A stretch of DNA of 64,000 nucleotides from Dromiciops gliroides. Lineage: Eukaryota; Chordata; Mammalia; Microbiotheria; Microbiotheriidae. Below the pieces are notes generated by a model. It saw only the letters and a list, made by a program, of their open reading frames with translations, was not told the DNA's origin and made no database searches. A program made the position numbers and the translations under genes. Within the stretch, counting starts at the first letter, position 1; each line of letters starts with the position of its first letter. This document shows positions 1 through 32,641 of this stretch, piece after piece. The stretch spans positions 52,940,643 through 53,004,642 of the forward strand of contig NC_057867.1 in assembly GCF_019393635.1 (NCBI RefSeq), read 5' to 3'.

Positions 1-1146
1 GCCTCATCTCTAAAATATATAGGGAATTAAATCAAATTTATAAGAATCCAAGTCATTCCCCAATTGAGAAATGTTCAAAGGATATGAACAGGCAGTTTTC
101 TGATGAAGAAACCAAAGCTATCTATTCCCATATGAAAAAATGCTCTAAATCTCTAATGATTAGAGAGATGCAAATTAAAACAACTCTGAGGTACCACCTG
201 ACACCTATCAGATTGGCTAAAATGACAAAAAAGAAAGATAATAAATGTTGGAGAGGCTGTGGGAAAATTGGAACACTAATGCATTGTTGGTGGAGCTGTG
301 AGCTGATCCAACCATTCTGGAGAGCGATTTGGAATTATACCCAAAGGGCGATAAAGCTGTGCATACCCTTTGACCCAGCAATTCCACTTTTAGGTCTTTT
401 GCCCAAAGAAATCATGGAAGGGGGAAAGGGACCCACATGTACAAAAATATTTATAGCTGCTCTTTACGTGGTAGCAAGGAATTGGAAGTTGAGGGGGTGC
501 CCATCCATTGGGAAATGGCTGGACAAGTTGTGGTATATGAATACAATGGAATACTATTGTGCTGTAAGAAATGATGAGCAGGAAGAGTTCAGAGAAACCT
601 GGAGGGTCTTACGTGAGCTGATGATGAGTGAGATGAGCAGAACCAGAAGAACGTTGTACACAGTATCATGAACATTGAGTGTTGACCTACTGTGATGGAC
701 TAGATTCTTCTCACCAATGCAATGGTACAGAAGAGTTCCAGGGAACTCATGATAGAAGAGGATCTCCAAATCCAAGAAAAAAAAAAGAAAGAAAAAACTG
801 TGGAATGTAGATGCTGATTGAACCATATTATTTCTTTTGTTTTGGGTGCTGTTGGTTTTTTTTCTATTTTGAGGTTTTGCATCACTGCTCTGATTTTTTC
901 TCTTGTAGCAGGATTAATGCAGAAATAGGATTAATGTTATTATGTGTATATATATGTGTGTGTATATATCTATATCTATATGTATAGAGATATATAGATA
1001 TAACCTATATCAGATTACCTGCTGTCTAGGGGAGGGGGGAGGGAGGGAGAAAAATCTGAAATTGTAAAGCTTGTATAAACAAAAGTTGAGAACTATCTTT
1101 ACATGTAACGGAAAAAATAAAATACCTTATACATAAAAAAAAAAGA
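1..1146 (+). mobile_element. Young L1 3' end (copy A)
   Basis: This is the 3' part of a LINE-1: the C-terminal part of ORF2 (to 672), a 3' UTR with a TA/TG-rich stretch (about 940-1005) and a purine-rich block (1029-1050), and an A-tract at about 1131-1145. It matches the reverse complement of the L1 at 30755-31920 with few differences, so both come from the same recently active subfamily. The element continues beyond the window start, so its 5' end and first target duplication cannot be seen. The A-tract runs straight into an older minus-strand L1 at 1147, so copy A probably inserted into that element. Confidence 0.9.
84..671 (+). pseudogene. L1 ORF2 C-terminal fragment (copy A)
   Basis: This open frame of 195 codons is the C-terminal end of L1 ORF2p. 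It holds the zinc-knuckle-like region (CWRGCGKIGTLMHCWWSC, residues about 55-72) and the typical ending with KLWYMNTMEYY and RRTLY. The equivalent frame at 31218-32641 reads SSTLSVDLL after TVS. Here one base change turns the second serine TCA into TGA, so the protein stops eight residues early. The ATG given is internal: the frame is a 5'-cut fragment with no reverse-transcriptase or endonuclease domain in the window. It is a relic with no independent function. Confidence 0.85.
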
Positions 1147-2362
1147 AATGAGGCCTTTATCAGAAGTACTGGCTGTAAAAATTGTTTCTCAGCTTTCTGC
1201 CTCCCTCCTAATTTTTGCTGCATTGCTTCTCTTTGTACAAAACCTTTATAATTTAATGTAATCAAAGTCATCCATTGTGCATTTCATAATATTCTCTATC
1301 TCTTGTTTGGTCATAAATTCTCCTCCTCTCCATAGATCTGAGAGGCAAACTATTCCTTTCTCTCCTAATTTACCTATGGCATCACCCTTTATGTCTAAAT
1401 CATGTACCCATTTTGACCTTATTTTGGTATATGGTGTAAGATGTTGGTCTATGACTAGTTTCTGCCATACTATCTTCCAGTTTTCCCAGCAGTTTTTGTC
1501 ACATAGTGAGTTTCTATCTCAGAAGCTGGAGTCTTTGGTTTTATCAAACAGTATTTTACTAAAGTCATTTACTACCTTGTCTCCTATTCCATTGATCTAC
1601 CACTCAATTTCTTATCCAGTACCAAATAGCTTTGATGACTGCTGATTTCTAGTATAGCTTCAGATTTAATATGGCTTATCCCACCTTCCTGTGTAGTCTT
1701 TTTCATTAGTTCCTTGATATTCTTGACCTTTTGGTCTTCCAGATGAATGTTGTTATTATTTTTTCTAGCTCTATAAAATAATTTTTCCATAGTCTGATTG
1801 GTATGGCACTGAATAAGTAGATTAATTGGGGTAGAATTGTCATTTTTATTACATTAGCTCAGCCTATCTGTGAACAATAGTTTTCCAGTTGTTTAGATCT
1901 GATTTTATTTGTGTGAAGTGTTTTGTAATTCTGTTCATAGAGACCCAGGATTTGCCTTGGCAGGTAGACTCCCAAATATTTTATATTGGCTACTGTTAAT
2001 TTAAATGGAATTTCTCTTTCTATCTTTTGCTGCTGAGCTTTGTTGGTCATATATAAAAATGCTGATGATTTATGTGGATTTATTTTATATCCTGCAACTT
2101 TGCTAAAATTGTTAATTGTTTCAAGGAGTTTTTTACTTGATTCTCTAGGGTTTTCTAGGTATACCTACATATCATCTGCAGAGAGTGATAGTTTTGTTTC
2201 CTCCTTGCCTATTCTTATTCCTTTAATTCCCTTTTCTTCTCTTATTGCTAAAGCTAACATTTCTAGTACAATATTAAATAATAGAGGTATAATGGACATC
2301 CCTGTTTCACCCCGATCTTATTGGGAATGCCTCTAGCTTATCCCCATTACATATAATGTTTG
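1147..2362 (-). mobile_element. Old L1 ORF2 fragment (copy B)
   Basis: This is antisense L1 ORF2 sequence equivalent to 3378-4420 in copy C. It has no 3' UTR of its own; its 3' side is cut off by copy A and its 5' side stops near 2362, where the 3' UTR of copy C begins. From 1147 to about 1750 it is almost identical to 3378-3975 (one clear substitution and one short indel), although both are riddled with stops. Beyond that point it drops to about 90% identity. It keeps about 180 bp (about 1750-1935) that copy C has lost. Confidence 0.85.
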
Positions 2363-2739
2363 ATGAACTGCTTTTATTATTTTCCAGTTACATGTAAAGA
2401 TAGTTTTTAATATTTATTTTCATAAGATTTTTAGTTCCAAATTTTTCTCCCTCCCTCCCTTTTCTTCCCCCTCCTCAAGACAGCAAGCATTCTGATATAG
2501 GTTATATATGTACAATCACATTAAACATATTTCTGCATTAGTCATATTGTGAAAGAAGAATCAGAGCACAAGGGGAAAACCTCAAAAAAGAAAAACAGCC
2601 AAAAAGTAGAAACAGTGTGGTTCAATCTGCATTCAGAATCCACAGTTCTTTTTTCTGGATGTGGAGAACATTTTCTATCATGAGCTCTTTCAAATTGTCT
2701 TGTGTCATTGCACTGCTGAGAAGATCCAAGTCTATCACA

Positions 2740-5700
2740 GCTGATGATCTCACAATGTTGCTGTTACTGTGTATAATGTTCTCCAGGTTCTTCTCACTTC
2801 ACTCAGCATCAGTCCACTTAAGTCTTTCCAGGTTTTTCTGAAATCTGCCTGCTCACCATTTCTTACAGCACAACTTACTCAGCCATTCCCCAATTGATAG
2901 GCATTTACTCAATTTCCAATTCTTTGCTACCACAAAGAGAGGTGCTAGAACTATTTTGTACATGTGGGTCCTTTTCCATTTTCTATGATCTCTTTGGGAT
3001 ACAGACCTAATAGTGGTACTACTGGGTCAAAGAGTATGCACAATCCCATAGCCCTTTGCGTATAGTTCCAAATTGCTCTCCAGAATGGTTGAATCACATC
3101 ACAGCTCCACCAACAATGCATTAGTGTTCTAGTTTTCCCACAGCTTCTCCAACATTTATTATTTTCCTTTTTTGTCATATTAGCCAATCTGATACCTGAG
3201 AGTTGTTTTAATTTGCATTTCTCTGATCAATAGTGATTTAGAGCATTTTTTCATATGACAATAGATAGTTTTGATTTCTTCATCTGAAAACTGCCTGTTC
3301 ATATCCTTTGACCATTTCTCAATTGGGGAATGACTTGCATTCTTATAAATTTGATTTAGTTCCCTATATATTTTAGAAATGAGGCCTTTATCAGAAGTAC
3401 TGGCTGTAAAAATTGTTTCTCAGCTTTCTGCCTCCCTCCTAATTTTTGCTGCATTGCTTCTCTTTGTACAAAACCTTTATAATTTAATGTAATCAAAGTC
3501 ATCCATTGTGCATTTCATAATATTCTCTATCTCTTGTTTGGTCATAAATTCTCCTCCTCTCCATAGATCTGAGAGGCAAACTATTCCTTTCTCTCCTAAT
3601 TTACCTATGGCATCACCCTTTATGTCTAAATCATGTACCCATTTTGACCTTATTTTGGAATATGGTGTAAGATGTTGGTCTATGACTAGTTTCTGCCATA
3701 CTATCTTCCAGTTTTCCCAGCAGTTTTTGTCACATAGTGAGTTTCTATCTCAGAAGCTGGAGTCTTTGGTTTTATCAAACAGTATTTTACTAAAGTCATT
3801 TACTACCTTGTCTCCTATTCCATTGATCTACCACTCAATTTCTTATCCAGTACCAAATAGCTTTGATGACTGCTGATTTCTAGTATAGCTTCAGATTTAA
3901 TATGGCTTATCCCACCTTCCTGTGTAGTTTTTTCATTAGTTCCTTGATATTCTTGACCTTTTGGTCTTCCAGATGAATTTTGTAATTGTGTTCATAGAGT
4001 TCCTGGGTTTGTCTTGGCAGGTAGACTCCCAAGTATTTTATATTGCCTACTTTAAATGGAATTTCTTTTTCTATCTCTTGCTGCTGAGCTTTGTTGGTCA
4101 TGTATAGAAATGCTGATGATTTCTGTGGGTTTATTTTATATCCTACAACTTTGCTAAAATTGTTAATTGTTTCAAGGAGTTTTTTAGTTGATTCTCTAGG
4201 ATTCTGTAAGTATACCATCATAACATCTGCAGAGTGATAGTTTTGTTTCTTCCTTGCCTATTCTAACTCTTTTAATTCCTTTTTCTTCTCTTATTGCTAA
4301 AGCTAACATTTCTAGTACAATATGAAATAATAGAGGTGATAATGGACATCCCTGTTTCACCCCTGATCTTATTGGGAATGCCTCTAACTTATCCCCATTA
4401 CATATAATGTTTGCTGATGGTTTTAGATACATACTGCTTATTGTTTTAAAGAAAGTTCCACCTATTCCTTTGCTCTCTAGTGCTTTTAATTGGAATGAGT
4501 GTTGCATTTTTGTCAATCTTTCTCTGCATCTATTGCGATAATCATATGATTTTGGTTAGTTTTCTTACTGATGTGGTTGATTATGTTGATAGTTTTCCTA
4601 ATGTTGAAGCAGCCCTGCATTCCTGGTATAAATCCCACGTTTTCATTGTGTATTATCCTGGTGATGAATTGCTATAATTTCCTTGTTAACATTTTCTTTC
4701 AGATTTTTGCATTGATATTGATTAAGGAAATTGGTCTGTAATTTTCTTAATGTTTTGGCTCTACCTGTTTTAGGTATCAACACCGTATTGTGTCATAAAA
4801 GGAATTTGGTAGAACCCCTTCTTCACCTGTATTTCTAAATAATTTTATAGTATTGGTATTAATTGTTCTTTAAATGTTTGGTAGAATTCACTTGTAAACC
4901 CATCTGGCCCTAACGATTTTTTCTTAGGGATTTCATTGATGGCTTGTTCAATTTCTTTTTCTGAAATGGGCTTATTTAACAATTTTATTTCCCCTTCTGT
5001 TAATCTGGGCAGTTAATATTTTTGTAAATATTCATCCATTTCATCTAGCTTGTCACATTTATTGCCAGACAGTTGAGTCAAATAGTTCCTAATTATTGAT
5101 TTATTTTCCACTTCATTGGTGGTGAATTCACCCCTTTCATTTTTGATACTGGTAATTTCGTTTTCTGCTTTCTTTTTTTTTTTAAATCAAATTAACCAAA
5201 GGTTATCTATTTTATTCCTTTTTTTCATAAAACTAGATCTTAGTTTTATTGATTAATTCTATAGCTTTCTTACTTTCAGTTTTCTTAATTTCTCCTTTGA
5301 CTTTAAGAGTTTCTAATTTAGTATTTAATTGGGGATGTTTAATTTGTTCTTTTTATAGTTTTTTTAGTTGCATGCCCAATTTACTGATCTCCTCTTTCTC
5401 TATTTTATTCATGTAAGCATTTAGAGACATAAAATTTTCCCTAAGAACTGCTTTGGCTGCATCCCATAAGTTTTGGTGTGTTGTCTCATTGTTGTCATTG
5501 TCTTGGGTGAGGTCAATGATTGTTTCTGTGATTTGTTGTTTGGCCCACTCATTCTTTAGGATAAGGTTATTTAGTTTCCACTGAATTTTCAGTCTGTCAT
5601 TCCATGGTTCTTTATTACATATAATTTTTATTGTATCATGATCTGAAAAGGATGCATTTACTATTTCTGCCTTGCTACATTTGACTGTGAGGTTTTTGTG

Positions 5701-6260
5701 CCTGTGCTATGTACCATTGAGAAAAAGATACATTCCTTTCTATCCCCATTTAGTATTCTCCAGATATCTATCATATATAAATTTTCAAAAATTCTATTCA
5801 CCTCTTTAACTTCTTTCTTATTTATTTTGTGCTTAAATTTATCTAGTTCTGAGAGGGGAAGGTTCAGATCCCCCACTAGTATAGTTTTGCTGCCTGTTTC
5901 CTCTTGTAACTCATTCAACTTCTCTAAGAATTTGGATGCTATGCCACTTGGTACATATATATGTTTAGTATTCATATTGCTTCATTGTCTATGGTACCTT
6001 TTAGCAAGATGTAGTTTCCTTCCTTATCTCTTTTAATTAGATCTATTTTTGCCTTTGCTTTGTCTAAGATAAGGATTGCTGACCCTGCTTTTTTTACTTT
6101 GGCTGAATCATAATATACTCTGTGTATATCTCTCTGCTTCAAATGTGGTTCTTGTAAACAATATATTGTAGGATTCTGGTTTTTAATCCACTCTGCTATT
6201 CACTTCAGTTTTATGGCAGAGTTTATCCAATTCACAGTTATTATTACTATTTCCCTCCAT
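2740..6260 (-). pseudogene. Broken L1 ORF2 (endonuclease-reverse transcriptase)
   Basis: This is the remains of the L1 ORF2 protein. The N-terminal apurinic endonuclease is readable at 5975-5661 (ILVGDLNLPLSELD, in the place of the usual GDFN block). A reverse-transcriptase piece is readable at 4516-4196 ([20 protein letters not shown] followed by L-rich sequence). The C-terminal cysteine region is readable at 3187-2951 (CWRSCGKTRTLMHCWWSCD). The YADD-type catalytic stretch lies near 4235-4220 and is damaged (CRCYDGIL). About 180 bp are deleted near 3977. At least several frameshifts separate the readable pieces, so no enzyme can be made. Confidence 0.85.
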
Positions 6261-6640
6261 CCTATTTTCCCCTTTTGTTTGTACTTTTTTTCTTTTTTCA
6301 CCCTATTCCTCCTCACCAGCATTTTGCTTCTAATGTCTGCCCTCCCTTCTGTCAGTGACACCCCTTTCTCCTTGCCCTTTTTATTTCCCTAAAGGGTAAG
6401 CTAAATTTCTTTATTCACATAAGTGTATATGTTATTCCCTCTTTGAACCAAATCTGATGAGAGTAAGGTTGAAACAATGCTCACCCCTCCCTTCTTTCCC
6501 TCTATTGTAATAGTTTTTTTGCATCTCTTCATAAGATGTAATTAACCCCATTCCACCTCCCCTTTTCTCTTGGCCCCATATACTCCTTTTTCACCCCTTA
6601 TTTTTCTTTATATCATCACATCAAAGACAATTTCTACCTA

Positions 6641-6734
6641 TAGAAAGAGGAGAAACAGAAAGGAAGAAGAGTTAGTGAATAGAGAGGAGTCAACAGAAAC
6701 AGGAGTGACAGTGAAGAGAGGTAGGGATTGGAGT
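6641..6734. repeat. Satellite-derived 94-bp patch inside L1 copy C
   Basis: This block is identical, base for base and in the same orientation, to 10430-10523 in the purine minisatellite 3.8 kb away. The flanks on both sides are ordinary L1 spacer sequence (for example ATCTGCCCAAATACAG downstream) and do not match the satellite. The patch is purine-rich while the surrounding L1 plus strand is pyrimidine-rich, so it stands out by composition too. No duplicated flanks or A-tract are visible, so it does not look like a retrotransposition. Confidence 0.9.
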
Positions 6735-7077
6735 GTATACCCCTATCTGCCCAAATACAGTTTTCAAGAGTTATAAGTATTCTCTTCCCTTGTAGGGATG
6801 TAAACAGTTTAACCTTATTGAATAACTTTTTTCCTGTTTACCTTTTTATACTTCTCTTGAGTCTTGTATTTGAAGATCTTTTTTTTTTTCTGTTTAGTTC
6901 TGGTCTTTTAATCAGGAAACCTTGGAAGTCCCCTATTTCATTGAATGTCCATCTTTTCCCCTGAAAGAGAATGCTCAGTTTGGCTGGGTAGTTGATTCTT
7001 AGTTGCACTCCAAGCTCCTTTGCCAGGTTCTGTGCAGTCCTGACTGTGGCTCTGTGATATATATATATATATATTTT

Positions 7078-7218
7078 TTTTTGCGGGGCAATGAAGGTTA
7101 AGTGACTTGTCCGGGGTCACACAGCTAGTAAGTGTCAAGTGTCTGAGGCCAGATTTGAATTCAGGTCCTCCTGAATCCAGGGCTGGTGCTTTATCCATTG
7201 TGCCACCTAGCTGCCCCC
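7078..7218 (-). mobile_element. tRNA-derived SINE (WSINE1-like)
   Basis: A full-length SINE on the minus strand: the head (CAGCTAGGTGGC type) is at 7218 and the T-rich tail is at 7074-7082. It sits in ORF1 of L1 copy C, so it is younger than that L1. The flanks TGTGATAT (7053-7060 region) and CATGATAT (7221-7230) may be a decayed target duplication. Confidence 0.88.
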
Positions 7219-7587
7219 TCCATGATATTTTAATTGTTCCTTCATGGCTGCTTGCAGTATTTTTTTTCCTTCACCTGATAATTCTGGAACTTGGTTATAT
7301 TATTCCTTGGAGTTTTTCCTTTTGGGATCCCTTTCAGGATGTGATTGGTGGGTTCTTTAATGACTATTTTATCATCTTATTCTGCACTATCATCTTTCAG
7401 GTAGTGCAATAATTTTCAAATTATCTCTCCTGGGTCTACTTTTCAGGTCAGTTTTCTTTCCAATGAGTCATTTTACAGTTTCTTCTCTTCTTTCATTCTT
7501 TTGATTCATTCCTGGTGTCTCATGGAATCATTAGCTTGCATCTGCCTAATTCTTAAGGTATTGGTTTTTTTTTTTTCAGTAAGCTTT

Positions 7588-7653
7588 GGTTTGTTTGTGG
7601 GGCAATGAGGGTTAAGTGACTTGCCCAGAGTCACACAGCCAGTAAGTGTCAAG
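7588..7653 (-). mobile_element. 5'-truncated SINE with target duplication
   Basis: Only the 3' half of the SINE (GGTTAAGTGACTTGCCC type, here antisense) is present. It is bounded by a perfect 13-bp repeat, TTCAGTAAGCTTT, at 7575-7587 and 7654-7666. This is a second SINE in ORF1 of L1 copy C. Confidence 0.88.
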
Positions 7654-8250
7654 TTCAGTAAGCTTTTAAAGCATTTCGTTTTCCATTTGGCCAACTGCAT
7701 TTTTTAAAGAATTGTTTTCTTCAGTCAATTTTTGTGCTTCCTTTCCCAAGCTATTGATTCTTTTTCATAACTTTATGTGTAGCTCTCACTTCTTTTACCG
7801 TTTTTTTCTTCTACTACTCTCATTTGATTTTTAAAATCTTTTTTGAGCTCTTCTAAGAAGGCTTTTTGGTCTTGGGACAAATTCATCTTCCCCCTTGAGG
7901 CTTCACATGTAGACATTTTGAGAGTATTTTCCTCATCTGATTTTGTGTTTCGGTCTTCCCTGTGGATACAGAGGCCACAGTGGCTTGTGGATTCCTCAAT
8001 GCTCTGGGCAGTTCTCCAGCTGGCAGATCTCACAACCAGTCTGCTGCGCTCCCCTTTCACCGAAGTGAGACAAACTTTTCATGAGGTCTTCAAAATTATC
8101 TCAAGTTTGATGATTTTGGCTATGTCTTTCTGTAGGTTCTATAGCTCTAGAGTCCATTAAGAGGCTTGATTTAATGTTGTTTTTGAGGAAAACACAGGGG
8201 ATCTCAGGCAACTTTCTGGCTTATCTCCAACATCTTGACTCTGCTCGCTA

Positions 8251-8920
8251 TCCTAAGTTTTCACAGTGCCTCATATAATTATGCATTGGTGTGACCCTGC
8301 GTAATTAAACTCAGATGGAATAAATGGGCTCATAGGCAGAGGTGTTACACAGCATTGCTGCCCAACGCGGATTAACAGGTAACTGAAAAATAAATTTAAA
8401 TCATGTTAGTATATAGTTTTCAAGGTCAATATATAGCCAGCAGGGATCCTTCTGTACAATGTGGTGGCATGCTTATGTTATCTAGCCCCGGGTCAAAGAT
8501 AACATCTCCTTGCTTTTCCTCACCCAGGCTACCATGGCAGGATTTGCTCACTCGGTAACACTCCCCAAGAACAAAAAGACTCTTTTTTTTAGAGACAAAA
8601 TAGAGGTTTGACTAGGGGCATACTTTGCTGTGGCCTCCTTCTTTCCTCCCAGTTTCTTAAACTTCACTATTTAGCCAAAGTAAAACACATAGTAACACAC
8701 TTAAGTCCACAAACATATCCTAACTGAAGCCCTATTTTCCTCTCCCATAGAAATGTCACTAGCATCTACAAAGGGAAGTGAGGTATCCTGTCTAGTCTCA
8801 CTAGTGGAGTAGTTGTGCCAGTGGGATCATGGTGAAGCCTCCAAAGGACTGAGTGAGCCGTCTTTGGATGCAGAGTCAAGGTAAGTAATGGGTTCAAATT
8901 TCACCCCTAACATTTAGTGG
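8251..8920. other. Unique sequence between L1 and satellite
   Basis: No repeat family, open frame or RNA gene is recognisable here. Base composition is mixed and unlike the pyrimidine-rich L1 spacer on one side and the purine satellite on the other. The stretch 8930-8945 marks the start of the GAGAGA-rich sequence. Confidence 0.5.
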
Positions 8921-9235
8921 CTTTTGGGCAAGTGAGAGAGAGATAAGGAGACAGATAAATAGGTAGATGCAGATATAGAGAAACAGAGAGGAAGAGAGGG
9001 AGTACAGTTAGCAAATAGAGAGAGGAGTGACAGGGATTGGAGTCAGAGGAGAGTGTTAGAAAGGAGAGAGAAGAAGAGTTAGTTAATAGACATGTAGAAA
9101 TAGGAGAGACAGAGAGTAGAAATAGGAGAGTTAGAGAAGGGATTGGAGTCAGAGAGCAGAAACAGGAGTGAGGGAGGAGAGCAAGAAGACTCAGAGGAGT
9201 CACAGGAGAGAGGAGTTAGAGTGAAGTGGAGGAGA

Positions 9236-9383
9236 GGGGCAGCTAGGTGGCGCAGTGGATAGAGCGCCGGCCCTGGAGTCAGGAGTACCTGAGTTCAAAT
9301 CCAGCCTCAGACATTTAACACTTACTAGCTGTGTGACCCTGGGCAAGTCACTTAACCCCAGTTGCCTCCCAAAAAAAAAAAAA
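9236..9383 (+). mobile_element. Full-length SINE inside the minisatellite
   Basis: A clear WSINE1-like copy with A box TGGCGCAGTGG (9248-9258), B box GTTCAAATC (9293-9301) and an A-tract at 9371-9383. GAGGAGAG occurs on both sides and may be the target duplication, but the same motif is common in the satellite. It is the only non-satellite insertion in the array. Confidence 0.95.
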
Positions 9384-10557
9384 GAAATAGAGGAGAGACA
9401 GAAAGGGCAGAAACAGGAGTCACAGTGAAGACAGAGATAGAGATGTATAGGAGTCAGTGGATTGTTAGTGAATAGAGTGAGTATTGAGTCTAGAGAGTTA
9501 GATTGAGGACAGACAGAGAGGAGGCACAGAGGAGTCAGAGGAGGGTTTTAGAAAGAGGAGATATAGAGGGAGGAGAGGGAAGAGTTAGGGAAGAGAGGTA
9601 GAAATAGGAGAGTTAGAGAAGGGATTGGAGTCAGAAAGAGGAGATATAGAGGGAGGAGAGAGAGGAGAGTGTTAGAAATAGAAGAGAGAGGAGTCAGAGT
9701 GAAGACAGTTAGAAATAGAGATGTATGGGAGTCAGTGAGCAGAAACAGGAGTGAAAGTAAAGAGAGAAAGGAGTCACAGAAGAGAGGTAGAAAGTGGGGA
9801 GACAGAGAGGGCAAAGTGTGAAAGGATATAGTGAAAAGAGGCATTAGAGTCAGTGTAGAGAGTTAGAAATAGAAGAGAGAGGAGTCAGTGGATTGTTAGT
9901 GAATAGGGTGAGTATTGAGTGGAAAGAGTTAGATTGAGGACAAACAGTGAGGAGGGAGAGGACTCACATTGAAGAGAGAGTGGAGGTAGAAATAAGAGAG
10001 TTAGAGAAGGGATTGGAGTCAGGAAGAAAAAGAGAGACAGGACAAAGTGTGAGAGGATAGAGTGAAGACAGAAATAGAGATAGAAATGTATAAGAGTCAG
10101 TGGATTGAATAGGGTGAGTATTGAGTGTAGAGAGTTAGTAAAGAGAGAGAGAGAAAGTGGAAAGAAAGAGCACAAAGAGAGAGTAGAGTCGGAGAGCAGA
10201 AACAGGAGTGAGTGCAGAGAGGAATTTTAGTCAGAGGAGTTAGAGGAGGGGGTGGAAATAGAGACAGAGAGGATAGAGTGGAGAGAGTTGGAGTCAGAGA
10301 GCAGAAACAGGAGTGAGAGTGAAGAGAGGTAGAAGAGGAGAGGCATGAGAGTTAGATTGAGGACAGACAGAGGGGGATAAGAGTGAAGAGGAGAGACGGA
10401 GAGGAGTTAGAGTGGAGAGAGAGAAGAGTTAGAAAGAGGAGAAACAGAAAGGAAGAAGAGTTAGTGAATAGAGAGGAGTCAACAGAAACAGGAGTGACAG
10501 TGAAGAGAGGTAGGGATTGGAGTTAGAGGAGAGACACAGGGAGAAGAGTAAAAGGAG

Positions 10558-10580
10558 TTTGAATCCAATCCCTCTCTACT
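10558..10580 (-). repeat. Strand-switched satellite block 1
   Basis: TTTGAATCCAATCCCTCTCT is the reverse complement of the common module AGAGAGGGATTGGATTCAAA, set into an otherwise purine-only strand. It is followed directly by CTGAGTGTAGAG in the normal orientation. Confidence 0.8.
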
Positions 10581-11109
10581 CTGAGTGTAGAGAGTTGGAA
10601 AGAAGGGAGAGAGGGAGATGTTAGTGAAGAGAGAGAGAGGAGTCACAGGAGAGAGGTAGTAAGTGGAGAGACGTAGAGAGTTAGATTGAGGACAAACAGG
10701 AGTCAGAGAGCAGAAACAGGAGTGAGAGTGAAGAGAGAAAGGAGTCACAGGACTCAGAACAGAGAGGCGAAAGAGGAGAGACAGAGAGGACAAAGACAGA
10801 AGAGTTAGAGGACTCAGTGGAGAGACAGGAGTCAGAGAGCAGAAACAGGACTGAGAGTGTAGAGAGTGAGAGTGAAGGGAGAAAGGAGTCGCAGGAGACA
10901 GGACTCAGAACAGAGAGGTAGAAAGAGGGGAGTCAGAGTGAAGACAGATAGAGATGGATAGGAGTCAGTGGATTGTTAGTGAATTGGGTGAACATTGCGT
11001 GTTAGGGAGTTAGAGTGAAGTCAGGAGAGGCAGAGAGGAGTTAGAGGAGAGTGGTAGAAATAGGAGAGTTAGAGAGGGATTGGAATTAGAAAGAGGAGAG
11101 AAAGAGAGG

Positions 11110-11700
11110 GCAAAGTGTGAAAGGATAGAGTGTAGAGAGTTAGATTGAGGACAAACAGAGGGGGATAAGAGTGAAGAGGAGAGACGGAGAGGGATTGGAT
11201 TCAGAGTGTAGAGAGTTGGAAAGAAGAGGGAGAGGAGAGGTAGAAAGAGGAGATATAGAAGGATAAGAGAGAGAAGAGACAGAGGGAGAAGTGGGAGAGA
11301 GAGAGGTAGAAGAGTCACAGGAGAGTTAGAAATTGGAAAGAAAGAGCACAAAGAGAGAGTGGAGTGGAGAGAGGGGAATTGGTGTGAGAGCAGAGGCAGA
11401 GAGAGATTAGAGTTAGTGAAGAGAGAGGAGTCACAGGAGAAAGTTAGAGGACAGAGGAGAGACAGAATGTAGAGAGGGAGAAGAGTTAGTAAAGAGAGGA
11501 CTCAGAGGAGAGTGGTAGAGAGTTGGGAAGATGAGTGAGTGGAGAGAGGTAGAAATGGGAGAGTTAGAAAGTAGAGAGACAGAGAGGGCAAAAAGAGAGG
11601 AGTTAGTGAAGAAAGGTAGAAATAGGAGAGAGAGAGGGAGAAGAGTCACAGGAGCGAGTTAGAGGAGTGAGAGTGAAGAGAGAAAGGAATCATAGAAGTG
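11110..11700. repeat. Higher-order repeat unit, first copy
   Basis: The succession of modules from ACAAACAGAGGGGGATAAG (11151) through GAGGGGAATTGGTGTGAGAG (11371) to GAGTTGGGAAGATGAGTGAG (11529) recurs in the same order at 13648, 13951 and 14077. The spacing between matches is about 2,500-2,580 bp, varying with internal indels. Confidence 0.85.
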
Positions 11701-12254
11701 AGTTATAGAGAGGGATTGGAGTCAGAAAGAGCAGAGACACATAGGAGTCAGAGGAGAGTGTTAGAAATAGAAGAGACAGAGGGAGAAGATCGAGAGGACT
11801 CAGAGGAGTGAGGGGAGAGAGTTAGAAAGTGGAGAGACAGAGAGGGCAAAGAGAGAGTGAAGAGAAGTAGAAATAGGAGAGAGAGAAAGGAGTCATAGGA
11901 GCAAGTTAGAAAGTGGGGAGACAGGGAGAAGAGTTAGTAAAGAGAGGAATCACAGGAGTGAGGGAGAAGTCAGGGGAGAGAGAAAGAAGAGAGACACAGA
12001 GGGCAAAGTGTGAGAGGATAGAGTGAAGAGAGTTAGAAATAGAGATAGAGATGTATAGGAATCAGTGGATTGGTAGTGAATAGGGTGAGTATTGGGTGTA
12101 GAGAGGTAGAAAGAGGGTGAAGAGTGAGAGGAGTCACAGGAGAGAGTTAGAAAGTGGAAAGAAGGAGCGCAAAGAGAGGGAGAAATAGGAGAGTTAGAGA
12201 GGGATTGGAGTCAGAGGAGAGACACAGGGATGAGAGGGAGAAGAGTGAAAGGAG

Positions 12255-12277
12255 TTTGAATCCAATCCCTCTCTACT
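12255..12277 (-). repeat. Strand-switched satellite block 2
   Basis: Same inverted block as 10558-10580, in the same module context (GAGACACAGGG upstream, GAGTTGGAAAGAAGGGAGAG downstream). The inversion therefore happened once and was copied with a larger unit. Confidence 0.8.
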
Positions 12278-12537
12278 CTGAATGTAGAGAGTTGGAAAGA
12301 AGGGAGAGAGGGAGATGAGTTAGTGAGGACTCAGAGGAGAGACAGAGAAGGCAAAAAGAGAGAGAGGAGTCAGAGAGCAGAAACAGGAGTGAGAGTGAAG
12401 AGAGGTAGAAATAGGAGTCTAAGGAGAGAGTTAGAGGACTCAGAGCGATTAGAATCAGAAAGAGTAGCAACAGTGTGGGAGAAGTGTTAGTGAAGGAACA
12501 GGAGTGAGAGGAGTCACAGGAGAGAGTCAGAAAGAGG

Positions 12538-13010
12538 AGAGATAGAAAGGAAAAAAAGAGTTAGTGAATAGACAGAAGTAGAAATAGTAGAGTTAGAGGA
12601 GTGACAGAGAGTGGGAGGAGTCACAGGAGAGATGGATAGGAGTCAGTGGAGTGTTAGTGAATAGGGTGAGTATTGAGTGTAGAGAGTTAGATTGAGGAGA
12701 CAGAGGGAGAAGAGTTAGTAAAGAGAGGAGTCAGAGGACTCAGAGCAGAGAGGTAGAAAGAAGAGACACAGAAAGGAAAAAGAGTTAGTGAATAGAAAGA
12801 AGTAGAAATAGTAGAGTTAGAGGAGTGACAGAGAGTGGGAGGAGTCACAGGAGAGATGGATAGGAGTCAGTGGAGTGTTAGTGAATAGGGTGAGTATTGA
12901 GTGTAGAGAGTTAGATTGAGGAGACAGAGGGAGAAGAGTTAGTAAAGAGAGGAGTCAGAGGACTCAGAGCAGAGAGGTAGAAAGAAGAGACACAGAAAGG
13001 AAAAGAGTTA
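12538..13010. repeat. Recent 224-bp tandem duplication in the satellite
   Basis: GATGGATAGGAGTCAGTGGA begins at 12631 and again at 12855, exactly 224 bp apart, and the surrounding sequence matches with very few differences. A third partial unit (AAAGGAAAAGAGTTAG) starts near 12986. This is the most homogeneous part of the array, suggesting recent unequal exchange or slippage. Confidence 0.88.
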
Positions 13011-13599
13011 GGGAATAGAGAGAAGTAGAAATAGGAGAGACAGAGGGAGAGGGAGAAGAGTTAGTAAAGAGAGGAGTGAGAGTGAAGGGATTGGAGTAAG
13101 AGGAGTCAGAGGAGAGAGGGAAAAATAAGAGAGAGACAGAGAGGGCAAAGTGTGAAAGGATAGAGTGTAGAGAGTTAGAGGAGAGACAGAGAGCAGAAAC
13201 AGGAGAGAGAGAGAAGGATTAGAGTCAGAAAGAGTAGAGACACATAGGAGTCAGAGGAGAGTGGTAGAAATAGAGGAGTCAGAGCAGAAACAGGAGTGAA
13301 AGTGAAGAGAGGTAGGGAGAAGAGTTAGTAAAGAGAGGAATCACAGGAGAGATTTAGAGAGGAGTCAGAGAGCAGAAACAAGAGAGGTAGAGTTAGAAAT
13401 AGAGATAGAGATGTATAGGAGTCAGTGGATTGTTAGTGAATAGGGTGAACATTGCATGTTAGGGAGTTAGAGTGAAGTCAGGAGAGACAGAAAGGAAGAA
13501 GAGGTAGTGAAGAGAGAGGAGTCACAGGAGAGAATTAGAGGGCTCCGATTCAGAGTGTAGAGAGTTAGAAATAGGAGAGAGATGGATAGGAGTCAGCAG

Positions 13600-14250
13600 A
13601 TTGGTAGTGAATAGGGTGAGTATTGAGTGTAGAGAGTTAGATTGAGGACAAACAGAGGGGGATAAGAGTGAAGAGGAGAGACGGAGAGGGATTGGATTCA
13701 GAGTGTAGAGAGTTGGAGAGGAGTCAGAGGAGAGACAGGGAGGGCAAAGAGAGAGAAGAGTCACAGGAGAGAGAAAGAGAAGAGATAGAGAGGTAGAAAT
13801 AGGAGTTAGAGAAGGGATTGGAGTCAGAAAGAGGAGATATAGAAGGATAAGAGAGAGAGGTAGAAGAGTCACAGGAGAGTTAGAAATTGGAAAGAAAGAG
13901 CACAAAGAGAGAGTGGAGTCGGAGAGCAGAAATAGGGGAGTTAGAGGAGAGAGGGGAATTGGTGTGAGAGCAGAGGCAGAGAGAGATTAGAGTTAGTGAA
14001 GAGAGAGGAGTCACAGGAGAAAGTATGTAGAGAGGGAGAAGAGTTAGTAAAGAGAGGACTCAGAGGAGAGTGGTAGAGAGTTGGGAAGATGAGTGAGTGG
14101 AGAGAGTTAGAAAGTAGAGAGACAGAGAGGGCAAAAAGAGAGGAGTTAGTGAAGAAAGGTAGAAATAGGAGAGAGAGAGGGAGAAGAGTCACAGGAGCGA
14201 GTTAGAGGAGTGAGAGTGAAGAGAGAAAGGAATCATAGAAGTGAGTTATA
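13600..14250. repeat. Higher-order repeat unit, second copy
   Basis: Same order of modules as 11110-11700. The later stretch AATAGGAGTCTAAGGAGAG at 14787 likewise repeats 12410 (offset about 2,377 bp). The duplicated segment was therefore probably at least 2.4 kb and has since gained and lost short modules. Confidence 0.85.
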
Positions 14251-15161
14251 GAGAGGTAGAGATAGAAGAGTTAGAGAGGGATTGGAGTCAGGAGCAAGTT
14301 AGAAAGTGGGGAGACAGGGAGAAGAGTTAGTAAAGAGAGGAATCACAGGAGAGATTTAGAGAGGAGTCAGAGAGCAGAAACAGGAGTGAGGGAGAAGAGT
14401 GAGGGAAGTCAGGGGAGAGAGAAAGAAGAGAGACACAGAGGGCAAAGTGTGAGAGGATAGAGTGAAGAGAGTTAGAAATAGAGATAGAGAGGTGGAAAGA
14501 AAGCGCAAAGAGCAAGAGAAGTTTTAGTGAAGAGAGGGAGAAATAGGAGAGAGAGAGGGATTGGAGTTAGAAAGAGGAGAGACAGAAGGCAGAAACAGGA
14601 GAGTGAGGGAGAGAGGAATTGGAGTCAGAGGAGAGACACAGAGGGATAAGAGAGAGGAGTCACAGGAGAGTTAGAAAGTGAAAAGAGAGAGTGGAGTCAG
14701 AGAGCAGAAACAGGGGGATTGGATTCAGAGTGTAGAGGAGAGAGTTAGAAAGAAGAGAGAGAGGAGTGAGAGTGAAGAGAGGTAGAAATAGGAGTCTAAG
14801 GAGAGAGTTAGAGGAGTCAGAGCGATTAGAATCAGAAAGAGTAGCAACAGTGTGGGAGAAGTGTTAGTGAAGGGAGAGACGGAGAAGAGTCAGAGTGAAG
14901 GAACAGGAGTGAGAGGAGTCACAGGAGAGATGGATAGGAGTCAGTGGATTGTTAGTGAATAGGGTGAGTATTGAGTGTAGAGAGTTGGAAAGAAGAGTGG
15001 TAGAAAGAGGAGAGTTAGAGAGGGATTGGAGTTAGAGAACTCTGAGGAGAGAGTTAGAGGACTCAGAGCAGAGAGGTAGAAAGAGGAGAGACAGAAAAGA
15101 AGAAGAGTTAGTAAATAGGAGGAGAGAGTTAGAAAGAGGAGAGACAGAGAGGGCAAAGACT

Positions 15162-15182
15162 GAGTCCTCTAACTCTCCTCTA
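15162..15182 (-). repeat. Strand-switched satellite block 3
   Basis: TCCTCTAACTCTCCTCTA interrupts the purine strand. Its reverse complement (TAGAGGAGAGTTAGAGGA) is a normal satellite module, so this is an independent small inversion. Confidence 0.75.
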
Positions 15183-15639
15183 TGGAGAGTGGTAGAAATA
15201 GGAGAGACAGAGGGAGAAGAGTGACAGGAGAGAGTTAGAAAGAGGAGAGACAGGAAGGAAGAAGAGGTAGAAATAGGAGAGTTAGAGGAGTCATAGGAGC
15301 AAGTTAGAAAGTGGGGAGATAGAGGAGTCGGATTCAGAGTGTAGAGAGGAGAGTGAGAGTGGGAGAAGTTAGGAAAGGGAGAGAGGGAGAAGTCACAGGA
15401 GAGAGTTAGAAATAGAAGAGACAGAGAGGGATTGGATTCAGAGTGTAGAGAGAGGGAGATGAGTTAGTGAAGAGAGAGAGGAGAAAGAGCGAAGAGAGTT
15501 AGAGATGTATAGGAGTCAGTGGATTGTTAGTGAATAGGGTGAGTATTGAGTGTAGAGAGTTAGATTGAGGACAAACAGAGAGTGAGTAGAGTGAAGAGTC
15601 TTAGAAAGAGGACCGGCAGAGGGATGAGAGTCAGAAGGA

Positions 15640-16292
15640 AGAATCAAAGAGGAAGAGAAGACTCTCTGAGTATAGAGAGGAGTCAGAGAGTGATGTGAGT
15701 CAAAAAGGAGAATCACATTGGGAGAGAAGTCAGAGGGAGAAGACGTGATGAGAGTGAGAGGAGTCACAGTGGAATGATACACATAAATTGAGGGAGATAG
15801 AAATGGAAGGAAGTAGAGATAGATAGAGACGGAGGGAGCTGGGGATAGAAAGATCTAGAGATCGAGATATATAAAGGTATAGAGAGGGAGATAGAGATAG
15901 AGACAAACTACTTCTTTCAAGAAAACCCCAAGATGAGCCACAAAGAGTGAGACGACTGAAAAATGAGTGAACAATAACAAAAATTCTTACCACTCGCCAT
16001 GGGCAAAGCAGTCACTTACTGGGCTGGAGGTGGTTAACCCTTCCTTCTTTTCTTCCCTGTAGTGGTAGAACAACCACTTTTCTTTGTTGTATTTTACCAA
16101 ATGATGTTTTGTTGCTATCACTGAGGGAAAGTTAACATACCTGAGGGAACAATCACCAGTAGTCGGTCACATTCTGATTATAAAGTCACCAAAATGGAGC
16201 TCCTCACTATCTCTGTTCATGGCCTTTCTGTTTGTACTTCTGTGTATTTGTATTTTCAAAACAATTAAAATTTCAAGGGCAAAAGCATCTTG
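15640..16292. repeat. 0.65-kb tandem duplication, left copy
   Basis: This copy begins in satellite-like sequence and runs through a SINE-tail relic (about 15905-15975, CAAGAAAACCCCAAGATGAG) into unique sequence ending near AAAAGCATCTTGG (16281-16293). It matches 16293-16941 at about 652 bp offset, in direct orientation. It has about 30-40 bp (about 16026-16063, GAGGTGGTTAACCCTTCC onward) that are missing from the right copy, and lacks a piece of the SINE tail present at 16577-16590. Confidence 0.88.
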
Positions 16293-16941
16293 GAAAGACG
16301 GAGGGACAAGAGTGGGAGAAGACAGCATGAAGAAAGTGAGAGGAATGAGAGTCAGAAAGAAGAATCACATTGGGAGAGACAAGTCAGAGTGAGAAGACTT
16401 GTGATGAGAATGAGAGGAGTCACAGTGGAATGATACACATAAATTGAGGGAGATAGAAAGATGTATACCATTAGATAGAGAGATGGAAAGAAGTAGAGAT
16501 AGAGATGTATGTATGTATATGTATCTAGATAAGGAGATATATAAAGGTAGAGACTGAGATAGAGATAGAGACAAACCACTGCAGTGTCTTTGCCAAGAAA
16601 ACCCCAAGATGAGCCACAAAGAGTGAGACGACTGAAAAATGAGTGAACAATAACAAAAATTCTTACCACTCGCCATGGGCAAATCAGTCGCTTACTGGGC
16701 TGTAGTGGTAGAAAAACCACTTTTCTTTGTTGTATTTTACCAAATGATGTTTGGTTGCTATCAGTGGGGGAAAGTTAACATACCTGAGGGAACAATCACC
16801 AGTAGTCAGTCACATTCTGATTATAAAGTCACCAAACAAAATGGAGCTCTTCACTATCTCTGTTCGTGGCCTTACTATTTGTACTTCTGTGTATTTGTAT
16901 TTTCAAAACTGAATTAAAATTCCAATGGCAAAAGCATCTTT
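16293..16941. repeat. 0.65-kb tandem duplication, right copy
   Basis: Direct repeat of the preceding unit, with differing ATG/TA-rich microsatellite (about 16460-16560), a fuller SINE-tail relic (16577-16650) and several point differences. Together the two copies make the transition from satellite to ordinary sequence. Confidence 0.88.
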
Positions 16942-25819: not shown

Positions 25820-28425
25820 GGACAAGGGTGAAGCCAAGATGGCAGATCAGAGGCAACCCCGCTGCACTCTCACAACAGTTCCTTCCCAAACAACACCTCA
25901 AATGAAATTTTGGTACAGCACGGCCAATAAAAGGTCAGGGTGAAACATTTTTCCAGCCTAAGGACACTTTGGGGGTTTGTGACACAAAGGTGGAAGCCAG
26001 TCCGCAGCCCATACACGCAGTGGGCAGCAATAGCAGGTACAGTAGCAGTAGCTTTCGGAGCTCTCAGCCCATATATGGTAAGGGGGCGCTTGACAACTGG
26101 TCAGAAAGAGGTTACAGGGGACCTTTTGCTGGCACTGGGTACAGGTAGTACAGACTGCCAACTCTACTGCAGCTCTGGATCACAGTTCCAGGGTGGAGAG
26201 GTGCACAAGGGAGCAGGGTCCCTAGTCACAGTTCCAAGGCAAAGAGAACTCTAGTGCTTGAGGAACCAGGGGCCCTTCCTGGTTAAAGACCAGAGGGCAC
26301 AGCAGCAGAGCAGTGACCACACCTTTCCCAGAATCACACCAGCTTGGAAGCACCACAACCTTGCAAACCCAAAGAACTAGCTCTGCAAACAGTAGCACTA
26401 AAAACCCTGAAGCTTGGGAACTAGTAGTGTGATTGGTATTCCCAAATGAAAGCTTCCAGGCAAAAGATAAAGTACTTCGAACAGCCAGAAAGAACCAATT
26501 CCAATAGTAGAGAGCCAGTAAGGATCACACAAGAAGATTTAGCAGCTTCCATGTTAAAGGAGTAGAGGACCTGGCATATATCACATAAGTTACATGTAAT
26601 ACATGTAACTCGTAAGAACATTGTGATTATTAGGACAGTTAAAATGAGTTTACATAGACAGAGGGCATAGGTGTGAGTCAATTATGTTGAAATGAAGGGG
26701 TGAAAAAGAGGGATTCACTGGGGAAAGGGGGGAGGGAGCGATAGAAGGGAAAAGTTTTTCTCACATAAAAGAGATAGGCAAGGAAGAGCTTTTACAGTGG
26801 ATGGGAGGAAATGGGGGAGAGGGTTAGCGGTTAATACTTGAACCTCAATCTCATTAGAATTGGTTCAAAGAAGGAAGAATACACACATATACATCCACTC
26901 CATTACACAATGGATATATGTATATACACATAATTTACTCAATAGAGAGAAAAGAGAGGAAAGGGAGAAGAGAGGTGGGGGGTGATAAAAGGTATAACAG
27001 ATCAAGGGAGGCAGAAGCAAAATTAACTTTTGAGGTGGGCCAGGATAAAAAGAGAGAAAAGAAGAAGAAACAAAATGGGATAGAGAGAAATCCACAGTGG
27101 TCATAACTGTGAATGGGATGAACTCACCCCAAAACAGAATCAGATAGAACAATGGATTAAGAACCAGGAATCCAAAAATATATAGTTTATAAAAGATACA
27201 CTTGAAACAGGACAAACACAGAGTTGAAATAAAGGGCTGGAGCAAAAGTTAAAAAAAAAAGGCAGGGGTAGCAGTCATGGTCTTGAACAAAGCAAAAGCA
27301 AAAGCAAAAAGACCTAATTACAGGAGATAATCAGAGAAACTACATTTTGCTAAAAGGTACCATAGACAATGAAGTAATATTAAAAAATTTTAAATCAACT
27401 TTCTCTGATAAAGGCATCATTTCTCAAATACATACTGAATATAAAACTGAAACAAATTTATAAAAAATAAGAGCCATTTCCCAACTGATAAATTGTCAAA
27501 GGATATAAACAGGAAGTTTTCAGAAGAAGAAATCAAATCTATCTATAGTCATATGAAAAAAATGCTCTAAATCACTATTGATTAGATAAAGGCAAATAAA
27601 AACAAGTCTAAGGTACCACCTCATACCTATCAAAAATGACAAATGCTGAAGGGGATGAGAGAAAATAGGTACACTAATGAACTGCTGGTAGAGTAGTGAA
27701 CTGATCCAACCATTTTGGAGAACAATTTGAAAGTATGCCCAAAGTATGCCCTATAAAACTGTGCATAGCCTTTGACCCAACAATACCACTACTAGGTCTG
27801 TATCCCAAAGAGATCAAAGAAAAGAGAAAAGGACCCACATGTACAAAAATATTTATAGCAGCTCTTTTTGTGATGGCAAAGAATTCGAATTTGAGGGGAT
27901 GCCCATCAATTAGGGAAAGGATGAACAAGTTGTGGTATATGACTGTGATGAAATACTATTGTGCTATGGGAAATGGTGTGTGTGGTTGGGGGCGTGGGGT
28001 TCAGAAAAAACATAGAAGGACCTATTGAAGTGAAGCAAAGTGAAGTGAGAACCAGGAGATGATTGTACACGTTAACAGTATGCTGTAATGACGCACAACT
28101 ATGAAGACTTCACTACTCTGATAGACAATGATCCAAAAAAACTCTTAAGGACTCCTGATGAAAAAACCCTGTCCACCTCCAGAGAGAGAAGTGATGAACT
28201 CCAAGTGCAAATTGAAGTTTAGCTTTCTCACTTTCTTTATTTTTCATGTTTGGAAATATGGCTAATACGGAAATGTGTTTCTAGTGATTTCACATATATA
28301 ATCACTATCGGACTGTTTGCCTTCTCGGTGGGTGGGGGAGGGGTTGGAGAGAATTTGGAACTCAACATGTAAAAGGAAAGAATGCAAAAGATAAATAAAT
28401 AATAGATTTGAAAATATTTTAAAAA
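25820..28425 (+). mobile_element. Old internally deleted L1 (or HAL1-like)
   Basis: Starts with an L1-type 5' UTR (GTGAAGCCAAGATGGCAGAT, 25828). An ORF1-like piece follows near 26480-26580 (AGTAAGGATCACACAAGAAG onward), then a purine-rich spacer (26700-27110) and an endonuclease-region piece (about 27260-27380, matching the reverse complement of about 5980-6110). It then jumps to the ORF2 C-terminus (27400-28020) and an old-style 3' UTR (28180-28425). Most of ORF2 is missing. The open frame 27735-28028 is the ORF2 tail. The mosaic order could also reflect several nested elements. Confidence 0.7.
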
Positions 28426-30739: not shown

Positions 30740-30754
30740 TTTGCTTGCTTTCTT
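30740..30754. repeat. Target-site duplication, left (L1 copy E)
   Basis: TTTGCTTGCTTTCTT, identical to 32642-32656. Confidence 0.95.
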
Positions 30755-32641
30755 CTTTTTTTTTTTTTTAATGTATGAGGTATTTTATTTTTTCCATTAC
30801 ATGTAAAGATAGTTCTCTACTTTTGTTTATACAAGCTTTACAATTTCAGATTTTTCTCCCTCCCTCCCCCCTCCCCTAGACAGCAGGTAATCTGATATAG
30901 GTTATATCTATATATCTCTATACATATACATATAGATATATATATACACACACACATATATATATACACATAATAACATTAATCCTATTTCTGCATTAAT
31001 CCTGTTACAAGAGAAAGAATCAGAGCAGTGATGCAAAACCTCAAAATAGAAAAAAAAAACAACAGCACCCAAAACAAAAGAAATAATATGGTTCAATCAG
31101 CATCTATACTCCACAGTTCTTTCTTTCTTTTTTTTTCTTGGATTTGGAGATCCTCTTCTATCATGAGTTCCCTGGAACTCTTCTGTACCATTGCATTGGT
31201 GAGAAGAATATAGTCCATCACAGTAGGTCAACACTCAATGTTGATGATACTGTGTACAATGTTCTTCTGGTTCTGCTCATCTCACTCATCATCAGCTCAC
31301 GTAAGACCCTCCAGGTTTCTCTGAACTCTTCCTGCTCATCATTTCTTACAGCACAATAGTATTCCATTGTATTCATATACCACAACTTGTCCAGCCATTC
31401 CCCAATTGATGGGCACCCCCTCAACTTCAAATTCCTTGCTACCACGTAAAGAGCAGCTATAAATATTTTTGTACATGTGGGTCCCTTTCCCCCTTCCATG
31501 ATTTCTTTGGGCAAAAGACCTAAAAGTGGGATTGCTGGGTCAAAGGGTATGCACAGCTTTATCGCCCTTTGGGCATAATTCCAAATTGCTCTCCAGAATG
31601 GTTGGATCAGCTCACAGCTCCACCAACAATGCATTAGTGTTCCAATTTTCCCACAGCCTCTCCAACATTTATTATCTTCCTTTTTTGTCATTTTAGCCAA
31701 TCTGATAGGTGTCAGGTGGTACCTCAGAGTTGTTTTAATTTGCAACTCTCTAATCATTAGAGATTTAGAGCATTTTTTCATATGGGAATAGATAGCTTTG
31801 GTTTCTTCATCAGAAAACTGCCTGTTCATATCCTTTGACCATTTCTCAATTGGGGAATGACTTGGATTCTTATAGATTTGATTTAATTCCCTATATATTT
31901 TAGAGATGAGGCCTTTATCAGAAGCACTGGCCTCAAAAATTGTTTCCCAGCTTTCTGCCTCCCTTCCAATTTTGGATGCATTGCTTCTGTTTGTACAAAA
32001 ATTTTTTAATTTAATATAATCAAAATCATCCATTTTGCATTTTATAATATACTCTATCTCTTGTTTGGTCAAAAACTGTTTTCCTTTCCAAAGATCTGAT
32101 AGGTACACTATTCCTTTCTCTCCTAATTTACCTATGGTATCACCTCTTCTGTCTAAATCATGTATCCATTTTGACCTTATTTTAGTATAAGGTGTAAGAT
32201 GTTGGTCTATGCCTAATTTCTGCCATACTATCTTCCAGTTTTCCCAGCAGTTTTTGTCAAATACTGAGTTCCTATTCCAGAAGCTGGAGTCTTTGGGTTT
32301 ATCAAACACTACATTACTAGTGTCATTTACTACTGCATTTCCTGAGCCTAGGCTATTCCATTGATCTACCACTCTATTTTTTAGCCAGTACCAGATAGTT
32401 TTGATGACTGCCGCTTTATAGTAAAGCTCCAGGTTTGGTACCGCTAACCCACCTTCCTGTGAATTTTTTTTCATTATTTCCCTGGATATTCTTGATTTTT
32501 TGTTTTTCCAGATGAATTTTGTTATTATTTTTTCTAGCTGTATAAAATAATTTTTAGGTAGTCTGATTGGTATGGCACTGAATAAGTAAATTAATTTAGG
32601 CAGTATTGTCATTTTTACTATATTAGCTCTGCCTATCCATG
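30755..32641 (-). mobile_element. Young 5'-truncated L1 (copy E)
   Basis: A 1.9-kb L1 on the minus strand, from ORF2 codons WIGRANIV (32640) to the stop (31218), a 3' UTR and an A-tract (T-run at 30756-30769). The perfect 15-bp duplications at 30740-30754 and 32642-32656, the unbroken ORF2 frame and near identity with copy A all indicate a recent insertion. On the minus strand the nick site reads CTAAAGAAAG, near the TT/AAAA preference of L1 endonuclease. Confidence 0.95.

Follow-up and report, generated by a model that had tools for sequence, protein, structure and literature searches.

A 94-bp piece of a purine-rich repeat array inside a neighbouring decayed L1, probably placed there by proximal repair-mediated duplication

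The window analyzed here, a 64-kb stretch of the Dromiciops gliroides genome (64,000 nucleotides), contains a decayed L1 on the minus strand that carries a short purine-rich patch, followed by a purine-rich repeat array (Table 1). Eight stop-to-stop pieces from the patched L1 were searched against Pfam. The piece at 4199-4555 (minus strand) matches reverse transcriptase above the Pfam cut-off (E 2.8e-7), and the piece at 3910-4257 matches the same domain below it (E 6.5e-6). Two weak endonuclease pieces lie at 5664-6199 (E 0.003-0.05, below cut-off), and a match to the L1 ORF1 dsRBD, just below cut-off, spans 6841-7116 (E 0.0003). The remaining pieces gave no match in one case of the eight and weak matches to unrelated families in two. 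Because ORF2 pieces lie on one side of the patch and the ORF1 dsRBD on the other, the patch sits in the inter-ORF spacer, in agreement with an earlier note on this DNA that had called both of its flanks L1 spacer. SINE-like stretches are found within the patched L1 at 7074-7221 and 7590-7654. Scanned against Rfam, the full window returned 0 matches at gathering scores, and a search for copies of the L1 spacer elsewhere gave 0 hits in both viral_contigs and genome_contigs, as expected for collections of virus and prokaryote sequence.

Table 1. Coordinates of the patch, its donor and the surrounding elements in the window
Feature	Position	Strand	Remarks
Decayed L1 with patch	2372..8240	-	Ends approximate; right end estimated by reading
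L1 inter-ORF spacer, ORF2 side of patch	6235..6640	-	29% purine on + strand; 6268-6603 matches second L1, E 8.6e-18
Acceptor patch, 94 bp	6641..6734	+	Identical to array; 82% purine on + strand
L1 inter-ORF spacer, ORF1 side of patch	6735..6840	-	41% purine on + strand; homology to second L1 moderate
Purine-rich repeat array	8930..15900	+	Ends approximate; short degenerate units and internal duplications
Donor block in purine-rich array, still present	10430..10523	+	Exact match
Second L1 spacer without block (comparison site)	26577..26749	+	Alignment to patched L1 flanks

The patched L1 bears a second scar of a kind that resembles repair. The L1 segments 1144-1757 and 3375-3987, which are 2.2 kb apart, agree in 602 of 603 MAFFT-aligned columns, plus one one-base gap, and their continuations agree in 414 of 446 (93%; Fisher p 1.3e-11). 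With gaps counted, BLAST gives 99.3% over 614 positions and then 90.4% over 458. The shift in identity coincides with ~163 bp (1758-1920) that are missing from the patched L1. Since a third L1 copy retains the first ~111 bp of this interval (aligned to 1868), the difference is a loss in the patched L1. This arrangement has the look of an ectopic conversion tract, between L1 copies that lie close together, which stopped at the deletion, and it shows that the patched L1 underwent local exchange, but with a homologous partner, unlike the patch. Elsewhere in the window, the L1 3' ends at 1-1151 and 30754-31912 lie in opposite orientation and are 96.8% identical (positions 1-9000 compared with the window).

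Internal duplications of the array occur at offsets of 228, 1688 and 2377-2447 bp. The array is broken at 9231-9379 by a SINE-like element, a unit that recurs across the window (32 hits) and that we take to be a SINE. Of 688 starts sampled in the array, 35 have a 94-mer that recurs exactly within it; such copies are not rare, and the array therefore turns over by duplication. Duplications at an offset of ~2.4 kb (10827-11713 against 13274-14256, and 12385-12496 against 14762-14873) suggest internal conversion or unequal exchange: their identity is patchy, 77% overall with one stretch in which 111 of 112 positions are identical. At the right edge, a tandem duplication of ~650 bp (15686-16291 and 16338-16940, 82% identity) runs into less purine-rich sequence. 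Inside the array, 18 bases of its motif also occur inverted, at 10560-10577, which is 37 bp past the donor block, and at 12257-12274, and a further inverted array piece lies at 15159-15177.

The patch at 6641-6734 and the array block at 10430-10523 are identical in 94 of 94 letters and in the same orientation, as the earlier note had claimed, and on neither side does the identity continue for even one further base. The two are separated by 3789 bp from start to start (~3.7 kb), and the array block is the sole exact other copy within the 64-kb window. Immediately outside the match, the surroundings of patch and donor agree at 5 of 30 positions on the left and 3 of 30 on the right. Chance is excluded as the source of this match by three comparisons. 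The longest exact match to the array is 20 bases among 1000 dinucleotide shuffles of the patch, and 28 bases among 500 simulated 94-mers drawn from an order-5 Markov model that describes the array. The 94-mer is also the longest of 10 exact matches of at least 18 bases, with a runner-up of 21; this list keeps pairs from unlike classes or unclassified sequence and excludes low-complexity, SINE-SINE, L1-L1 and array-array pairs.

The block is native to the array. Its best other array copies, in a comparison that skipped window starts up to 150 bp from the donor, have at most 81 of 94 letters alike. The donor is therefore the block at 10430-10523 itself, one of its alleles or a paralogue that escaped view.

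A second L1, on the plus strand at 26.5-28.0 kb, provides a comparison for the acceptor site, and its ORF2-side spacer is 62% identical to that of the patched L1, a firm homology (E 8.6e-18). When the flanks are joined without the patch, they align to the second L1 across the position of the patch with a z of 4.7 (300 shuffles); the patch alone gives no alignment (z -1.4). Single 100-bp flanks do not rise above shuffles (z 1.3 and 1.9). The joined score is reached by 16 of 1000 alignments when the ORF1 flank is shuffled and the ORF2 flank kept, and by 10 of 1000 in the reverse case. With longer flanks, the joined score of 127.2 lies 2.5 standard deviations over the mean of 200 shuffles, yet below their maximum of 129.8. 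As judged on this one diverged copy, with moderate evidence on the ORF1 side, the block is very probably additional to the L1. The earlier note had considered that the purine block might belong to the L1 itself; sought in one other spacer copy, it is absent there. The direction from array to L1 is well supported.

How much spacer was lost depends on the alignment. With the one diverged L1 copy as reference, a loss of 0 bp ranks first at all four gap settings, and at one of them it scores 17.3 versus 12.9 for a loss of 13 bp. A marsupial L1 spacer consensus would, we presume, favour a loss of ~13 bp. We dropped a single fixed size for the lost spacer: 0 bp is best-scoring and ~13 bp is possible.

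Inspection of the junction letters revealed no poly-A or A-tract and no target-site duplication (TSD) or flank repeat, which bears out the earlier note on both points, and on these grounds we reject L1-mediated retrotransposition (class 1). At either choice of loss (0 or 13 bp), the junctions share no more than 1 base of microhomology, as judged from one diverged L1 copy. The orientation of the patch also carries information. Purines prevail on the minus strand in the L1 spacer and on the plus strand in the patch (Table 1), and the matches of the flanks inside 8931-15900 are inverted in 17 of 17 cases, all of them weak (E up to 10). An L1 end that invaded the array through shared purine-richness would thus have produced a copy in the orientation opposite to the one seen, so priming by purine homeology is unlikely. 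Our inference favours a capture of the end-joining type, or else copying that began at minimal microhomology.

The patch is identical to a donor that is still intact 3.7 kb away, its ends are sharp and share no homology outside the block, and it has no marks of retrotransposition (no TSD, no A-tract). Together with the second L1 that lacks the block, these observations sustain the earlier note's proposal of a templated insertion during break repair. Because the donor is intact, the event was copy-and-paste. We therefore regard the patch as most likely a proximal repair-mediated duplication of the type that Pace et al. (2009) described. The event would have begun with a double-strand break, in the germline, in the inter-ORF spacer of the old L1. 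Some 92-94 bases would then have been copied from the purine-rich array 3.7 kb off, or a copy captured from it, before the ends were rejoined at a cost of 0 to ~13 bp of spacer. The likeliest pathway would be synthesis-dependent strand annealing or template switching with almost no microhomology; a close second would be that a stray piece of the array, for example a replication flap, was ligated in. That the array served as donor probably reflects its proximity and the proneness of repetitive, purine-rich DNA to replication trouble.

The comparison with the duplications of Pace et al. (PMC2671141; figures from the available part of the paper) shows close likeness in several respects. In their cases a transposable element is split by 50 bp or more of inserted sequence (median 147 bp, maximum 619 bp); here the L1 is interrupted by 94 bp, with support from the empty second L1 that is moderate on one side. 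Their donors lie less than 5 kb and more than 50 bp away, and ours lies at 3789 bp. Both are copy-and-paste events without a poly-A/T tract, and poly-A was lacking in 39 of 39 proximal cases inspected by Pace et al. The comparison is less decisive on three further points. The interrupted fragments are to be collinear on the consensus within 30 bp; here 0-13 bp are lost relative to one diverged L1 copy rather than a consensus. The inserted sequence is to occur at one other genomic place, and the patch has one exact copy in the 64 kb, alongside many diverged array copies. As for the marks of end joining (microhomology, deletion or filler), the patch shows microhomology of at most 1 base and a deletion of 0-13 bp depending on the alignment. 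The possible small deletion (0 to ~13 bp) resembles the 1-15 nt reported by Pace et al. (PMC2671141).

There are also differences. According to Table 1 of Pace et al., microhomology of 2-9 bases was found in 31 of 39 proximal cases, and the other 8 all had filler (PMC2671141); microhomology of that length, common there, is not seen here. By the distances given in the same source, 824 of 1,136 duplicons were within 5 kb of the donor and 753 of 1,136 under 3 kb, which places our donor in a less common distance class, 3-5 kb. A further difference is that the donor here is a repeat array, a type of donor that the filters of Pace et al. would probably have dropped. The counts of proximal duplications in the available text are 824 in human and 179-266 each in mouse, rat, dog and cow, and the words marsupial and opossum are absent from the text in a term search (PMC2671141).

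Other known systems share parts of this picture. In yeast, templated insertions at breaks are short copies from fragile or repetitive loci, as here, and the 94-bp patch comes close in size to the inserts of rad27 mutants, whose median is 88 bp in the accessible part of that study; the yeast system differs in its use of mutants and an induced break, and in its distant donor loci (PMC11724301). Interstitial telomeric repeats likewise represent tandem repeats put at former breaks in evolution; as described in the available portions of these papers, they differ in being hexamers, with telomerase proposed in some cases and no copying from a neighbouring array (PMC7215372, PMC8537989, PMC2246262). 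Among the titles listed in a literature search, three concern telomeric repeats at breaks, and none names a non-telomeric satellite array as the source of a patch in the germline.

Class 2 templated sequence insertion polymorphisms (Onozawa and Aplan 2016, PMC5110952) deserve closer comparison, as they too are break-repair patches without TSD or poly-A. In the part of that paper available, their source loci are distant and an RNA template is favoured, unlike the 3.7-kb donor here, and the screen discarded alpha satellite (PMC5110952). The patch has both of the absences by which class 2 is recognized, and as regards end-joining marks (microdeletion, microhomology, added bases), microhomology is at most 1 base and the loss is 0-13 bp depending on the alignment. 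An array transcript might have been reverse transcribed at the break in an endonuclease-independent way. In the available accounts, insertions in a cell assay fell more than 3-fold under reverse-transcriptase inhibitors, and reverse transcriptase for class 2 insertions is suggested to come possibly from L1 ORF2. However, the inserts in that assay derived from distant loci and not from nearby sequence, and the only exact copy of the patch in the window is 3.7 kb away instead of at the distant template typical of class 2. We consider an RNA-templated origin improbable.

An assembly artefact, in which a mis-join or consensus error put array sequence into the L1, strikes us as somewhat more improbable again. 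Repeat arrays are in general hard to assemble. However, a mis-join does not usually take the form of a 94-bp insert flanked on either side by L1 sequence that keeps the order found in another L1 copy.

The perfect identity between patch and array might also be read as continuing gene conversion between the array and the L1, and the patched L1 does have a likely conversion tract with another L1 (602/603, versus 414/446 beyond it). However, L1 and array lack homology outside the block (only 5/30 and 3/30 positions agree in the flanks), so conversion could not have placed the block, and we reject it as the origin of the patch. The earlier note's alternative that the two are still exchanging sequence is thus not supported, and we hold continuing conversion to be very unlikely. 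Later conversion of the patch is possible but not needed. It would blur an estimate of the patch's age: 0 differences in 94 positions give an upper bound on divergence of 3.1% (95%), or ~7 million years at 2.2e-9 per site per year, a rate taken from Pace et al. that may not be the host's.

The least probable reading, which we think should be given hardly any weight, is that the array arose from an L1 spacer that already held the block: the L1 spacer is indeed purine-rich on its sense strand, but the one other spacer copy has no such block, and on the sense strand of the focal L1 the block is pyrimidine-rich, contrary to the trend of the spacer.

The patch provides a clean example of short-range templated repair in which donor and acceptor are both visible. 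Taken alone, it is a single case of a class already documented, with the repeat-array donor as a modest twist. It points to repeat arrays as local donors, which would probably have been filtered from the published survey of such duplications, although repetitive loci are already known as insertion donors in yeast and humans, to go by the available parts of the literature. A more general, and in our view unlikely, extension is that the array is a standing source of patches for its neighbourhood, one that often breaks or sheds fragments, with nearby DNA being repeatedly patched. If that were true, the filters of the published survey would probably have hidden this class of donor. If arrays seed many of their neighbours in this way, tandem repeats would spread in small pieces without transposition.
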